From contig NZ_LZRN01000034.1 in NCBI RefSeq assembly GCF_001678675.1, positions 1 through 45,993 on the forward strand: DNA of 45,993 bases, in the 5' to 3' direction. The notes beneath the pieces were generated by a model. That model ran no database searches. It was not told the DNA's origin and worked only from the letters and a program-made list of their open reading frames with translations. Below are positions 4,062 through 45,085 of the stretch, one piece after another. Each line of letters opens with the position of its first letter. Position 1 is the stretch's first letter. The position numbers were made by a program, and so were the translations under genes. The DNA comes from Gelidibacter algens (lineage in GTDB: Bacteria > Bacteroidota > Bacteroidia > Flavobacteriales > Flavobacteriaceae).

Positions 4062-4128
4062 TTTTCTAGAAATAACTTATTTTTGGATCGATAATTTGAG
4101 TTATAGTTAGGAGAAACCTTCTAGCTAT

Positions 4129-4149
4129 TAACTTGTAACTTCTAACTTC
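4129..4149 (+). repeat. Heptamer tandem repeat, 3 units (TAACTTG, TAACTTC, TAACTTC)
   Basis: Three uninterrupted 7-bp units end three bases before the ATG of the GlmU-like gene. It is the smallest of four period-7 arrays in the window and does not share the GTCNNNN form of the other three. Confidence 0.65.
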
Positions 4150-4152
4150 AGT

Positions 4153-5328
4153 ATGAACTACATTCTTTTCGACGGTCCCTCTAGAAATAATCTTCTCCCC
4201 TTCACCTATACGCGACCGGTTGCCGATATTAGAATTGGAATTTTAACCATTCGTGAAAAATGGGAAATTCATCTGGGTTGCACCACCACAACCATTACTG
4301 AAGATTATCTTTCTGAAAAGTTCCCAATGGTAGAAATGGACGAGAATGTCATGATCAATGCGTCCTATTTGCCTACTATTGAATTGGTAGAACTTGTAAT
4401 GAATTTGGGAGAGAACCAAGCTATTTTTAAAGATGAAGATGTCATTGCATTTTTTACTAAAGACGCCCAAAAAGATATCGATTTTAATGCTTTTGAAGCG
4501 ATTGAATATCACGGGAATGCCCTTAAATTAGAACACACTTGGGATATTTTCACGAAAAATGGAGAGGCGATTCAAGAAGATTTTGATTTAGTTACAAAAG
4601 GAAGGACGTCACAGCCCATTCCGTCCAGCAACAATATCATAGCAGCCCATAACATTTTCTTGGAGGAGGACGCAATTTTAGAATTTGCGACGCTTAATGC
4701 CAGCAATGGCCCAATTTATATTGGTAAAGATGCCGAAGTTATGGAAGGTGCTATGATTAGAGGACCTTTTGCTATTTGTGAGCATTCGGTAGTCAAAATG
4801 GGTGCTAAGATTTATGGACCCACCACCGTTGGACCATATTGTAAGATAGGAGGTGAGGTCACCAATTCCGTACTTTTTGCTTATAGCAATAAGGGGCACG
4901 AAGGGTATTTGGGCAACTCCGTTATTGGAGAATGGTGCAATTTGGGTGCAGATACCAACAATTCCAATCTCAAAAATAATTATGCCGAGGTAAGGATTTG
5001 GGAGTATACTACTGAAAGTTTTGCGCGTACCGGGCTGCAGTTTTGTGGACTTATGATGGCCGATCATAGTAAATGCGGCATCAATACTATGTTCAACACG
5101 GGTACGGTCGTGGGCGTGAGTGCCAATATCTTTGGAAGCGGTTTTCCGCGTAATTTCATACCTAGCTTTAGTTGGGGAGGACCTGGAGGATTTACAACAT
5201 ATTTGACTAAAAAAGCATTTGAAGCAACAGCGGTTGTGATGTCCAGACGTCAATTGGAGTTTACAGAGATAGACAAAGCAATCTTGGAACACATTTTTGA
5301 GATCAGTAAAAAGTTTAGAAGAGATTAA
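4153..5328 (+). CDS. GlmU-like sugar nucleotidyltransferase / left-handed beta-helix protein
   Basis: The 391-residue protein has a divergent N-terminal nucleotidyltransferase-like domain (MNYILFDGPSRNNLLPFTYT; about 1-180) and a C-terminal hexapeptide left-handed beta-helix (about 185-340; repeats such as IYIGKDAEVMEGAMIRG and MGAKIYGPTTVGPYCKIGG). It matches the Bacteroidota family often annotated as an alternative GlmU or glucose-1-phosphate thymidylyltransferase, proposed to make UDP-GlcNAc for peptidoglycan and LPS. The canonical LAAGxGTRM signature is replaced by LFDGPSRNNLLPFT, so catalysis by the usual loop is not shown directly. The start is immediately preceded by a 7-bp repeat. It is probably monocistronic. 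Confidence 0.85.
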   Translation: MNYILFDGPSRNNLLPFTYTRPVADIRIGILTIREKWEIHLGCTTTTITEDYLSEKFPMVEMDENVMINASYLPTIELVELVMNLGENQAIFKDEDVIAFFTKDAQKDIDFNAFEAIEYHGNALKLEHTWDIFTKNGEAIQEDFDLVTKGRTSQPIPSSNNIIAAHNIFLEEDAILEFATLNASNGPIYIGKDAEVMEGAMIRGPFAICEHSVVKMGAKIYGPTTVGPYCKIGGEVTNSVLFAYSNKGHEGYLGNSVIGEWCNLGADTNNSNLKNNYAEVRIWEYTTESFARTGLQFCGLMMADHSKCGINTMFNTGTVVGVSANIFGSGFPRNFIPSFSWGGPGGFTTYLTKKAFEATAVVMSRRQLEFTEIDKAILEHIFEISKKFRRD

Positions 5329-20058: not shown

Positions 20059-20073
20059 GACTTCACGAATTTT

Positions 20074-20108
20074 GTCTATTGTCTATTGTCTATTGTCTAT
20101 TGTCTATT
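20074..20108 (+). repeat. Heptamer tandem repeat, 5 perfect units of GTCTATT
   Basis: Five identical 7-bp units fill most of the gap between the importer permease (stop at 20120) and ATPase (start at 20058) genes. It is the only perfect array among the four period-7 arrays in the window and could vary in length by slippage. Confidence 0.9.
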
Positions 20109-30563: not shown

Positions 30564-31037
30564 ATGAAAATTTTTAAAAGCATAGTGCTAGTTATGTTGT
30601 TAGTATTTATAGTCGCACAATTTTTTGGTCCTGAAACAAATGAAGGTACTATAGCCTCTTTTGAGCCTTTTTTGAAAGAAACCAATCCACCTAAAAAGGT
30701 GGCTAATATTCTTAAGGAAACTTGCTTTGATTGCCATAGTGATGTTACGCGCTATCCATGGTATGATAAAATAACACCTGTAAATTATTGGTTGGCAGAT
30801 CATATTGAAGAAGGAAAGAAAGAGTTTAATGTTTCTGCTTGGGACAGCTATTCCACTAAAAAGAAAGACCATAAATTTGAAGAACTTATTGAGATGGTTG
30901 AAAAACGAGAAATGCCACTTGAATCCTATACCTATACACACTCAGAAGCTAACTTGACAGATGAACAAATAGCAGCAGTAGCAGATTGGGGCAAAAAAGT
31001 AAGAATAAAATATAGTTTGGAGCCAAAACCTCAATAG
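30564..31037 (+). CDS. Heme-binding domain protein
   Basis: A 157-residue exported or membrane-anchored protein: an N-terminal hydrophobic segment (about 5-22), then the heme-binding domain (haem_bd type) with CFDCHS (Cys54, Cys57, His58), which attaches c-type heme, followed by TRYPWYDKITPVNYWLADHIEEGKKEFN, the diagnostic family signature. The C-terminal helix LTDEQIAAVADWGKKVR is typical. The electron-transfer partner is unknown. The gene is followed six bases later by the 16-unit heptamer array. Confidence 0.9.
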   Translation: MKIFKSIVLVMLLVFIVAQFFGPETNEGTIASFEPFLKETNPPKKVANILKETCFDCHSDVTRYPWYDKITPVNYWLADHIEEGKKEFNVSAWDSYSTKKKDHKFEELIEMVEKREMPLESYTYTHSEANLTDEQIAAVADWGKKVRIKYSLEPKPQ

Positions 31038-31043
31038 CTTTAA

Positions 31044-31155
31044 GTCGGCAGTCGGCAGTTGGCAGTCGGCAGTTGGCAGTCGGCAGTCAGCAGTCAGCAG
31101 TCGGCAGTCGGCAGTCATCAGTTATCGGTCATCAGTCATCACTCATCAGTCATCC
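31044..31155 (+). repeat. Heptamer tandem array, 16 units (GTCGGCA then GTCATCA variants)
   Basis: Sixteen consecutive 7-bp units with no insertion or deletion (112 bp). Units 1-10 are GTCGGCA, GTTGGCA or GTCAGCA; units 11-16 are mainly GTCATCA with GTTATCG, CTCATCA and GTCATCC. The period is strict while positions 4-5 vary between blocks. It starts six bases after the heme-binding gene stop and ends 25 bp before the glycosyltransferase GTG. Confidence 0.95.
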
Positions 31156-31180
31156 ATCCAACTAGTTAATTCGTGAATTC

Positions 31181-32416
31181 GTGGTAACCAAAAAACTATT
31201 AATCATCGGCCACGTCTGGCCAGAGCCAAAAAGTTCTGCTGCAGGAAGCAGGATGATGCAACTTATTGAAGCCTTTCAAAAGGAGTATTATGAAATTATT
31301 TTCGCAAGTGCTTGTGCCAAGAGTGATAAGGCTTTTGATCTTTCTGAGATTGGAATTGTGCAGTCAACTATTGAAATGAACCATACCAGTTTTGATCATT
31401 TTGTAAAAAGCGTCAATCCTGATGTGGTACTTTTTGATCGGTTTATGACGGAAGAACAATTTGGATGGCGCGTTGCTGAACATTGTCCGCGCAGTTTGAG
31501 GGTTCTTGATACTGAAGATTTGCATTGCTTGCGTAAAGGCCGACAACAGGCTTTTAAAGATGGGGTTGAATTTGATCAGTCCTATCTTTTTAATGATTTT
31601 TCAAAGCGTGAGATTGCGAGTATATATCGTTGTGACCAGTCTTTGATTATCTCTGAGGTGGAGATGGCCTTGTTGAAAAACGTTTTCAACGTTCCCGAAG
31701 AGTTGCTGTTTTACTTGCCTTTTCAGCTAGATAAAATTTCTGAAGAAACCATTTCAAACTTACCGTCTTTTGATGAGCGAAAGGATTTTATCACCATTGG
31801 TAATTTTCTTCACGAGCCCAATTATAATGCTGTTCTATATTTGAAAGAAGCAATTTGGCCCTTAATCAAACAACAACTCCCAAGTGCCCGATTGCACATT
31901 TATGGCGCTTACGCCTCTCAAAAAGTGACTCAATTGCATCATGAAGCTAGCGGATTTTTAATCAAAGGTTATGCTGAAGATGTGCATGAGGTTATGGCGA
32001 ATGCCAAGGTGTGTTTGGCACCGTTGCGTTTTGGAGCTGGCCTTAAAGGAAAATTAATAGATGCTATGTTGGATGGCACACCTTGTGCGATGACGTCTAT
32101 TGCTGCGGAAGGTGTTTTTGGGACATTGGAACCTAATGGCTTTGTTGAGGACGACGCTGAATCATTTGCTAAAAAAGCGATTTTACTTTATCAAAATGCA
32201 TCTTTGTGGAAAGAGAAACAACAACACGGATTCAAAACCCTTAACGTCCGTTTTGATAAGGCCAATTTTCATGATCTATTTTTTAATACTTTAAATGATA
32301 CGGTTTTGAAGCTTCAAGAACATCGGCATAAAAACTTTACAGGACAAATGTTACAACACCATGCGCTGCAGTCTACCAAATACATGAGCAAATGGATTGA
32401 AGCGAAGAATAAGTAA
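31181..32416 (+). CDS. Glycosyltransferase family 4-like
   Basis: A 411-residue GT-B glycosyltransferase. The N-terminus KKLLIIGHVWPEPKSSAAGSRM is a Rossmann first strand with the acceptor loop. The C-terminal half has KVCLAPLRFGAGLKGKLIDAMLDGTPCAMT, the usual E/G-rich nucleotide-sugar-binding region of GT1/GT4, though Asp replaces the common Glu of the EX7E motif (IDAMLDG). The only plausible start is GTG at 31181; the next ATGs (MMQLIEAF) would remove the first strand. That GTG is the end of a direct repeat AATTCGTG-AATTCGTG next to the heptamer array. The product is probably an envelope or exopolysaccharide sugar; specificity is unknown. Confidence 0.85.
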   Translation: MVTKKLLIIGHVWPEPKSSAAGSRMMQLIEAFQKEYYEIIFASACAKSDKAFDLSEIGIVQSTIEMNHTSFDHFVKSVNPDVVLFDRFMTEEQFGWRVAEHCPRSLRVLDTEDLHCLRKGRQQAFKDGVEFDQSYLFNDFSKREIASIYRCDQSLIISEVEMALLKNVFNVPEELLFYLPFQLDKISEETISNLPSFDERKDFITIGNFLHEPNYNAVLYLKEAIWPLIKQQLPSARLHIYGAYASQKVTQLHHEASGFLIKGYAEDVHEVMANAKVCLAPLRFGAGLKGKLIDAMLDGTPCAMTSIAAEGVFGTLEPNGFVEDDAESFAKKAILLYQNASLWKEKQQHGFKTLNVRFDKANFHDLFFNTLNDTVLKLQEHRHKNFTGQMLQHHALQSTKYMSKWIEAKNK

Positions 32417-43101: not shown

Positions 43102-43146
43102 AAAAAAAAACGAAGAGAAAAGATTAAACCCTTCACTTCGTTTTTA
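43102..43146 (-). terminator. Terminator of the DEAD-box helicase gene
   Basis: AAAACGAAG (43107-43115) pairs with CTTCGTTTT (43136-43144) around a 20-nt loop and runs into a T-tract on the minus strand. The heptamer array lies between this hairpin and the helicase stop, so it would be transcribed. Confidence 0.75.
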
Positions 43147-43151
43147 TATTA

Positions 43152-43214
43152 GTCTTCAATCTTCGGTCCTCGGTCTTCAGTCCTCAGTCTTCGGTCAATA
43201 GACTTCAGTCTTAT
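43152..43214 (+). repeat. Heptamer tandem array, 9 units (GTCTTCA/GTCCTCG variants)
   Basis: Nine consecutive 7-bp units without gaps (63 bp): GTCTTCA, ATCTTCG, GTCCTCG, GTCTTCA, GTCCTCA, GTCTTCG, GTCAATA, GACTTCA, GTCTTAT. It ends two bases before the helicase stop codon (43217-43219) and lies in its 3' untranslated region. Confidence 0.9.
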
Positions 43215-43216
43215 AT

Positions 43217-45085
43217 CTAATCTTTACGTCTTGAACGTTTCTGTCTAGAAAAACTTGAGTCAGCAGCCGATTTTTCACTTGCGCCAGAACGTCTGTCTCT
43301 TCTATTAGGGCCTGAACTTTCTCCAGAACGTCTAGGCTTAGACTCCGAAGTTCTTCTATCACCTCCAGAACGTCTTTCACCGCGTGGTTTAAAATCACCA
43401 CTAGAGCGTCCGCCGCCGCCGCTAGGACGTCTTTTGTTTCTGCTAGTGCCACCGCCTTTGTCTTCACTGACTTCAACATTTACAAAACGACCGTTGTGTT
43501 TATAATCGGTGAAGAAAGCCAATACTTTTTCTTGTAATCCTTTTTCGGTATTAAAGAAGGAGAAGCTATCCTTGACATCCACTTTAAAGACATCATCCCT
43601 TCCAAGATCCATAATATCTTTTAGAAAATCTTTCAGACTCATCCAATCATAACCGTCTTTCTTGCCAACATTGATAAAATAACGGGAAGAATCATCATTG
43701 CCACCGTAATCTCCGCCAAAATCACGACCAGAGTCGCCATCTCTGTCGCTTCCGCGAGACTCAGATACCGATAGGTTTTTTGATTTGTTGTAGTAGTTAA
43801 AGAATCGTGTGAATTCTACTGAGAAGAATTTTTTAATCAATTCATCTTTGGAAGTTTCTTCAAATAATTCGTTAATACTAGTCAGGTATTTATCAATCTC
43901 GTGATTGATTTCAGTGGTATGTATTTTATTTGCCAAAGACATCAACTGTACTTCGCAAATTTCCATCCCATCAGGAATTTCTTTTTTGTCAAAGCTTTTG
44001 TTAATGATGCGCTCAATACTTTTTATTTTGCGCAATTCGCTTTTAGAAACGATAACTATCGAGACCCCTGTTTTACCAGCACGTCCTGTTCTTCCTGAAC
44101 GGTGTGTGTAAGTTTCTATCTCGTCTGGTAATTGATAATTGATCACGTGTGTAATATCATCCACATCAATTCCACGCGCAGCAACATCAGTGGCTACCAA
44201 CATTTGGATTTGCTTTTTACGGAAAGAATTCATGACCATATCACGTTGATTCTGGCTCAAATCACCATGAAGAGCACCAGCATTGTAGCCATCTTCAATC
44301 AATTGCTCAGCCACTTTTTGGGTATCGCGTTTGGTACGACAAAAAATCACCGAGAAAATATCAGGATTAGCATCAGCCAAACGTTTTAAGGCTTGATAGC
44401 GGTCACGGGAATTCACTAAGTAATATTCGTGAGATACCTGATTGGTACTTTCATTTTTGTTACCTACGGTAATCTCAACAGGCGAATTCATGAATTTTTT
44501 CGCAATGTTGGACACTTCTTTCGGCATGGTTGCAGAAAATAACCAGGTGTTTTTGTCTTTAGGGGAATGGGAAAGTATATCAGTGATATCTTCATAAAAG
44601 CCCATATTCAACATTTCATCAGCCTCATCAAGTACGGCAAACTCAATTTTAGAAATGTCAACCATATTACGGTTGATCATATCTTTCATCCTCCCTGGGG
44701 TAGCCACAATAATTTGTGCCCCTCTTTTGACATCTCTTGCTTGGTCGCTAATACTCGCACCACCATAAATAGCGGTAACATTTAGACCTTTGCAATATTT
44801 GCCGTAATTTTTTAGTTCGTTGGTAATTTGTAAACAAAGTTCACGGGTAGGAGAGAGGATCAATCCTTGTGTGGTTCTACTCTCTATGTTGATTTTTTGC
44901 AACATTGGAAAGCCAAACGCAGCAGTTTTGCCTGTTCCTGTTTGTGCCAAAGCCACTAAATCTGTGTCTTTTTCTAATAAAATTGGAATTGCTTTTGCTT
45001 GGACATCACTTGGGGTTTCAAAACCCATGTCAGTAATAGCGCGTAAAAGGTCATCATTAAGACCTAAATCTTGGAATGTGTTCAT
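43217..45085 (-). CDS. DEAD-box RNA helicase with DbpA-type RNA-binding domain
   Basis: ATP-dependent RNA helicase (DeaD/CsdA-like), 622 residues, predicted to act in cold adaptation, ribosome assembly or RNA decay. Motifs: Q-motif region FQDLGLNDDLLRAI, Walker A AQTGTGKT (47-54), DEAD (153-156), FSATMP, and the helicase C part with FCRTKRDT, ATDVAARGIDV and YTHRSGRTGRAGKTG. A DbpA RNA-binding-like domain covers about 470-545 (YFINVGKKDGYDWMSLKDFLKDI), followed by a Gly/Arg/Ser-rich tail (RRPSGGGGRSSGDFKPRGERR) to the end. The leader upstream is about 110 nt, from a TAnnTTTG box at 45199. Confidence 0.95.
   Translation of the reverse strand: MNTFQDLGLNDDLLRAITDMGFETPSDVQAKAIPILLEKDTDLVALAQTGTGKTAAFGFPMLQKINIESRTTQGLILSPTRELCLQITNELKNYGKYCKGLNVTAIYGGASISDQARDVKRGAQIIVATPGRMKDMINRNMVDISKIEFAVLDEADEMLNMGFYEDITDILSHSPKDKNTWLFSATMPKEVSNIAKKFMNSPVEITVGNKNESTNQVSHEYYLVNSRDRYQALKRLADANPDIFSVIFCRTKRDTQKVAEQLIEDGYNAGALHGDLSQNQRDMVMNSFRKKQIQMLVATDVAARGIDVDDITHVINYQLPDEIETYTHRSGRTGRAGKTGVSIVIVSKSELRKIKSIERIINKSFDKKEIPDGMEICEVQLMSLANKIHTTEINHEIDKYLTSINELFEETSKDELIKKFFSVEFTRFFNYYNKSKNLSVSESRGSDRDGDSGRDFGGDYGGNDDSSRYFINVGKKDGYDWMSLKDFLKDIMDLGRDDVFKVDVKDSFSFFNTEKGLQEKVLAFFTDYKHNGRFVNVEVSEDKGGGTSRNKRRPSGGGGRSSGDFKPRGERRSGGDRRTSESKPRRSGESSGPNRRDRRSGASEKSAADSSFSRQKRSRRKD

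Follow-up and report, generated by a model that had tools for sequence, protein, structure and literature searches.

The 16-unit heptad array at 31044-31155 (+ strand) of the window, the whole 45,993-bp stretch of DNA analysed here, probably belongs to a genome-wide intergenic heptamer satellite family, whose arrays grow 7 bp at a time through slippage or unequal exchange, with units seeded or exchanged between loci. Period 7 dominates the tandem arrays of the source genome and its relatives, most genomes tested share one unit dialect among their separate loci, and the orthologous gaps of Gelidibacter include both empty sites and arrays whose units have changed while the period is still seven.

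The array at 31044-31155 and its neighbours

The window comes from a draft genome of 4.5 Mb that is split into 140 contigs. Its glycosyltransferase finds its best matches among named genomes in Gelidibacter (81% at the amino acid level), and the source genome is that of a Gelidibacter-like member of the Flavobacteriaceae. The array lies between a haem-binding-domain ORF (30564-31037) and the glycosyltransferase ORF (31181-32416), whose start follows the array end by 25 bp. Its 112 bp comprise 16 heptads in strict register with zero slip, exactly as a preliminary description of this DNA had stated; reading of the sequence and TRF agree on this, the latter reporting two overlapping period-7 rows (31043-31116 and 31084-31154). 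The autocorrelation score is 63 against an array cut-off of 14, and the array has the character of a heptameric SSR, with a 7-nt tandem unit and a length greater than chance. The reported drift from GTCGGCA to GTCATCA is also borne out, as ten GTCGGCA-type units (31044-31113; GTCGGCA x2, GTTGGCA, GTCGGCA, GTTGGCA, GTCGGCA, GTCAGCA x2, GTCGGCA x2) are followed by six GTCATCA-type units (31114-31155; GTCATCA, GTTATCG, GTCATCA x2, CTCATCA, GTCATCC), the last being proximal to the glycosyltransferase. Unit order is non-random, with adjacent units resembling each other more closely than they do when the order is shuffled (P = 0.0024), which supports an origin of the block structure in unit duplication, in line with the expansion of units suggested earlier.

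RNA folding of the whole array gave z = -6.6 on the + (sense) strand and +0.3 on the - strand. The GTCGGCA half is self-complementary as sense-strand RNA via G-U pairs and is predicted to form a long wobble-paired hairpin, and the strong fold arises because GUCGGC self-pairs through wobbles; no strong fold was found by RNA folding of the - (sense) strands of the other two window arrays. Since its cause lies in the GGCA-type units, we read the predicted fold as incidental, though it is located where relatives carry an inverted repeat.

Two further GTC heptad arrays, as previously reported, are present in the window. One, detected by TRF at the junction of FecCD permease and ABC ATPase genes (20072-20108, + strand), has 5.3 units of TTGTCTA (GTCTATT). 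The other is a weaker, degenerate run of nine GTCTTCA-type units (43152-43214, + strand) directly after the stop codon of a - strand DEAD-box helicase gene (43217-45085), where it sits between that stop codon and a terminator-like hairpin read by eye (ACGAAG...CTTCGT plus a T run; 43102-43145, - strand). There is also a weak run of 4.6 CTTCTAA heptads (4118-4149, + strand) just upstream of an ORF at 4153.

Prevalence of period 7

Arrays were detected by scoring self-match at each lag with a cut-off of 14, and the source genome was sampled regardless of repeats through the window and 40 further stretches (829,793 bp in total). This sample contains 18 period-7 arrays and no more than three arrays at any of the other periods between 1 and 30. 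A single first-order Markov resample contained no period-7 arrays and one array at period 30. The preliminary description would have been overturned by a period 7 no commoner than other periods, and the reverse was found. The same preference appears in 80 loci of relatives (10 arrays at period 7, at most two at other periods) and in the 46-47 kb of eight Gelidibacter genomes that are syntenic with the window (eight arrays at period 7, at most two at others, periods 2-30). Among 149 Flavobacteriaceae genomes, 52 contain four GTCs spaced at period 7 (227 sites), against 7 of 149 at period 8, and the period-7 pattern is present in 84 of 198 Bacteroidota genomes. With home-made gene models, 17 of the 18 unbiased arrays lie outside predicted genes.

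A general flanking element common to the arrays was considered and rejected on comparison of their flanks, which revealed no general common sequence, only short pieces shared by some pairs; the conserved ends expected of a mobile element are therefore not seen. Together with the dominance of period 7, this supports the earlier suggestion of a common 7-bp process as opposed to one copied element. Searches of Rfam returned only two sub-threshold, chance-level matches.

Unit wording and genome dialects

The preliminary description took GTC to be the mark of the family, and this has not survived. A GTC or GAC occurs in the consensus unit of only 8 of the 18 unbiased arrays, compared with 10% of random intergenic heptads, with a P value of 0.0002 that assumes independent arrays, which these are not. 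Other units in the source genome include AACATCT, AACACTG, AAACTAG, and AAACAAC, and relatives outside the genus have TCTAACC, TAATCAA, AGTATGA, CTTCTAA, TTCACCA, and CGAATTA; the constant is therefore the period and not GTC. In the same 149 genomes, the backward control CTG gave 401 sites in 79 genomes against 227 in 52 for GTC, and while this control is partly the same arrays read as CAG..., 36 of the 79 CTG genomes are still without a GTC match. GTC as a universal anchor is thus rejected. The related statement that different units share only the period and GTC stands as to the period, fails as to GTC, and is incomplete, as loci also share unit dialects.

Dialects were tested on 139 of 150 listed GTC-conditioned sites (227 in all), the listed sites coming from 40 of the 52 genomes in a listing that leaves out the array-rich genomes G084 and G080; 11 close neighbours or copies were removed by hand, and some pairs 2-7 kb apart were retained. 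For the four free bases, mean likeness over 517 within-genome pairs was 0.578, compared with 0.375 for shuffled labels (maximum of 2000 shuffles, 0.434), and it was 0.574 over 458 pairs when loci were at least 10 kb apart (133 rows; shuffled 0.376, maximum of 2000, 0.435). Omission of the window's genome from the 10 kb-spaced test gave 0.616, and a null that permuted positions with site composition kept gave 0.383 (maximum 0.415). The loci of one genome thus share dialects far above chance, and are therefore not fully independent. Eleven genomes have four or more listed sites; nine of them lean towards a dialect, G027 slightly, and none was found in the other two (G103 and G088). Examples are G023, with GTCATTC at all eleven listed loci, and G078, with GTCGGAA or GTCAGAA among its listed sites.

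Counts in two other Bacteroidota genomes, G273 (57 CTG-anchored heptad sites and no GTC sites) and G329 (151 CTG and 42 GTC), suggest that these carry other strong dialects. In an exploratory analysis, two of six tests made after the pattern had been noticed, 28 distinct units showed an excess of matches at lag 3, a 3+4 half-unit spacing (P = 0.022 for any base, P = 0.007 for C/G).

Growth within arrays

Neighbour likeness was assessed in the 25 of 57 source-genome arrays with at least eight units and at least three unit types. Unit identity drops steadily with distance, from 0.853 for neighbouring units to 0.663 for units eight apart, and shuffled unit order gives 0.756, with none of 2000 shuffles reaching the neighbour value. 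The nearest units are the most alike, so growth was by local duplication, and units vary freely inside single arrays. In six of seven informative arrays of the source genome, units ending in A come before units ending in C, a common order that is a weak sign of common ancestry among composite arrays and hints at their copying.

Gene context of the arrays

Position was analysed with the home-made gene models in 47 source-genome arrays scoring at least 14, a set biased by the 29 that came from loci picked by GTC pattern. Two lie in predicted genes and one is without a neighbour; the remaining 44 occupy 29 tandem, 12 convergent, and 3 divergent gaps, when divergent and convergent gaps account for 23% and 14% of intergenic bp, respectively. 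The convergent excess is repeated in five other genomes (7 of 24 arrays, 15% of bp), where divergent arrays are about as frequent as expected (5 of 24, against 24% of intergenic bp), and the scarcity of divergent arrays (3/44) is therefore claimed for the source genome only. In its tandem gaps, the mean relative position from the stop side is 0.34 (P = 0.002 under uniform placement), and 13 of the 29 arrays are at most 15 bp from the stop codon compared with 4.8 expected, with 5 of 29 equally close to the start side. Arrays nearer the stop number 20 of 29 in the source genome (P = 0.06), 9 of 12 in other genomes (P = 0.15), and 29 of 41 when pooled (P = 0.012), sign tests that are weak when taken alone. 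The stop-side position in the source genome fits tolerance at 3′ ends and might also reflect a 3′ function. Identity of the purine-rich strand with the sense strand, seen in 22 of 29 source-genome tandem-gap arrays, holds for 6 of 12 in other genera and is not claimed.

Turnover among Gelidibacter species

Array sites differ strongly between species in a comparison with eight other Gelidibacter genomes (one genome per species). At the FecCD/ABC junction, three genomes that the tree places as a clade sister to the window genome (G155, G013, and G154) have only 3-4 bp including the stop codon, and among the 30 best Flavobacteriaceae loci, from 50 genomes with a match of 60 searched, 14 junctions measure 5 bp or less. 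Where heptads are present, the units differ: GTCTATT x5 in the window, GTCTGTT and ATCTGTT in G153, GTCTGTT and TTCTATA in G151, and, in G150, TTCTATA giving way to ATCTGTT without a change of register. The junctions of G149 and G152 are wide gaps with what by eye seem to be decayed heptads.

At the site corresponding to 31038-31181, five of the eight relatives (G155, G150, G013, G154, and G152) retain the haem-binding gene without the array. These five have instead an inverted repeat of the AATTCC...GGAATT type, partial in G152, which is also found in Wocania. G149 and G153 carry GTCACCC/GTCATCC/GTCATCG arrays immediately 5′ of the same glycosyltransferase gene, with the haem-binding gene absent there, and G151 has neither the gene nor an array. 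The GTCATCC unit next to the glycosyltransferase in the window resembles the units at this site in G153 (GTCATCC) and G149 (GTCATCG and GTCACCC). The three array carriers are ungrouped in the tree; therefore, there has been repeated gain or loss, or exchange within the genus. Upstream of the glycosyltransferase, inverted-repeat arms are heptad-like in some of the loci L051, L053, L054, and L056 (AAATTCCAAATTCC).

At the third site, the terminator-like hairpin is present in all seven relatives whose gap was read. Inspection by eye found GTC heptads in the same place as the 43152 array in G149 and G153 and traces in G150, and none in G155, G013, G154, and G152.

Origin and maintenance

If the arrays form a heptamer satellite family as proposed, they would lengthen and shorten by whole 7-bp units through polymerase slippage or unequal exchange, and such whole-unit change would spread point mutations locally, so that units drift into blocks with the 7-bp register retained. 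The seven-nucleotide step would have its cause at the level of the polymerase, and the arrays, presumably without a dedicated function, would survive mainly where they do least harm, for instance in 3′ untranslated gaps and operon junctions. Slippage by itself fails to predict dialects common to separate loci, or why the unit is seven and not five, six, or eight. The proposal includes loci that may be seeded from, or swap units with, others, which would give most genomes a dialect. An alternative that puts such movement first, with composite arrays dispersed between loci in a mobile-like manner by ectopic exchange or template switching and slippage secondary, would account for the genome dialects, the single unit class in 4 of the 18 unbiased arrays, the A-before-C order in six of seven informative arrays, and a TTCG-ATCC-ACCC string common to two loci. 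We consider it improbable as the main source, because the flanks lack a general common sequence and because the junction arrays at 20072 keep the NTCTRTW type across species, unlike the GTCNNCN dialect of the genome. Dialects common to separate loci would also follow if the arrays were multivalent RNA or DNA sites near gene ends for a trans-acting binder, the dialect tracking protein specificity; the stop-side bias in the source genome and the 43152 array, flanked by a stop codon on one side and the terminator-like hairpin on the other, accord with this, and excerpts of PMC4679880 propose an RNA-binder for TAACTGA repeats. However, units are free to vary within one array, the operon-junction array is entirely absent from three Gelidibacter, and the purine-strand bias does not extend from the source genome (22/29) to other genera (6/12), making a binder an unlikely explanation.

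A bolder and rather doubtful idea is that conserved Bacteroidota machinery fixes the 7-nt step and spreads the current unit to many gene ends. If true, the arrays would be under active maintenance and would evolve in concert as part of 3′ untranslated regions, with wording that shifts from genus to genus and a register that stays at seven. A repeat-adding reverse transcriptase similar to DRT10 or telomerase would give a fixed unit length with genome-specific wording; excerpts of PMC12632851 describe synthesis of tandem-repeat DNA by DRT10, and the source genome has three RVT_1 matches, one below cut-off. RVT_1 is nevertheless unassociated with the arrays (15 of 52 GTC-array genomes, 24 of 97 genomes without GTC arrays; Fisher P = 0.70), 37 of the 52 array genomes lack a match, with the proviso that RVT_1 may miss divergent reverse transcriptases, and the similarity of neighbouring units points to local copying. 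This origin was rejected as very unlikely. Chance or assembly artefact is less credible still, to the point of being negligible: the assembly is a draft in 140 contigs, two of which share an identical 3,031 bp, yet the Markov resample yielded no period-7 arrays and other assemblies also carry arrays at the corresponding sites.

Relation to described heptamers

The preliminary description knew of no matching element, a view corrected by the literature, as intergenic heptamer arrays have been described, including in Bacteroidetes (PMC4679880, PMC4692102, both consulted as excerpts), and the window array therefore belongs to a described kind. TAACTGA repeats are intergenic tandem heptamers with many copies per Beggiatoaceae genome; they also occur in five Bacteroidetes, including Gramella, Aequorivita, and Elizabethkingia, beside other heptamers, and close relatives may have shorter gaps without repeats (MacGregor 2015, PMC4679880, excerpts). 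GTTATCA, which is TAACTGA on its other strand, is one substitution from the window unit GTCATCA. TAACTGA itself is absent from the units of the 31044 array; as TAACTGA x2 it occurs at one site in the source genome, and 3 of 9 Gelidibacter have such sites. The Beggiatoaceae repeats are dominated by one exact unit and mostly lie within several nt before start codons (PMC4679880, excerpts), whereas the source-genome arrays have many units and are mostly nearer the stop side (20 of 29 tandem-gap arrays).

Xanthomonas and Nostoc carry GGGAATC and GGGGA(C/T)T heptamers, which are intergenic and near ORFs, are scarce between divergent genes, and differ in length and sequence at the same gene pairs in sister species (Rehm 2015, PMC4692102, excerpts). 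As far as these excerpts describe them, the present arrays are alike in being heptameric, intergenic, and near ORFs, in their divergent scarcity in the source genome, and in their variation among sister species. The Xanthomonas and Nostoc units are rich in G and fold into G-quadruplexes in vitro (PMC4692102, excerpts). The 31044 units have at most GG, short of a G tract of at least three per unit; GTCACCC arrays elsewhere in the source genome do have GGG on one strand.

Heptanucleotide repeats of cyanobacteria are known as STRR, and the present arrays are like them as tandem heptanucleotides, by description and not by sequence. The excerpts of PMC4692102 mention heptanucleotides in Calothrix and quote a polymerase-footprint slippage idea for heptamers. 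Over-representation of heptamers, with period 7 the commonest long unit, was reported together with this slippage idea by Mrazek et al. 2007 (via excerpts of PMC4679880 and PMC4692102), which is a survey and does not define a family, and whose top-ten list as quoted in PMC4679880 names no Flavobacteriaceae.

Searches of the openly licensed literature turned up no account of dialects specific to a genome at a fixed period, and such dialects, with unit turnover at fixed period, are apparently new. Why long bacterial simple repeats prefer seven is met in the excerpts of PMC4679880 and PMC4692102 only with a guess at slippage. Many genomes in one phylum with different period-7 dialects, and empty and filled sites in one genus, provide variation that lets slippage, inter-locus exchange, and selection be distinguished. 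The arrays further add length to operon junctions and 3′ ends, and they probably break draft assemblies.

Sequences adjoining the arrays

The sequence AATTCGTG adjoins two of the window arrays, with two copies at 31168-31183, the second overlapping the GTG at which the glycosyltransferase ORF starts, and one at 20064-20071, immediately before the GTG start codon of the ABC ATPase ORF. Its counts in the source-genome sample were 20 for 111,012 intergenic positions and 14 for the 718,494 other positions, and from this intergenic excess it looks like a dispersed intergenic motif. The identical 3,031 bp on contigs C11 and C72 (L158 and L174) carry two heptad arrays and are either a duplicated segment or an assembly copy. 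A GC-rich dispersed sequence of the GCCTGCC...GGCAGGC type recurs in gaps, some of them beside arrays, and was seen in L145 near 11344, in G153 and G150 (site 43197), and in G152 (site 31038).
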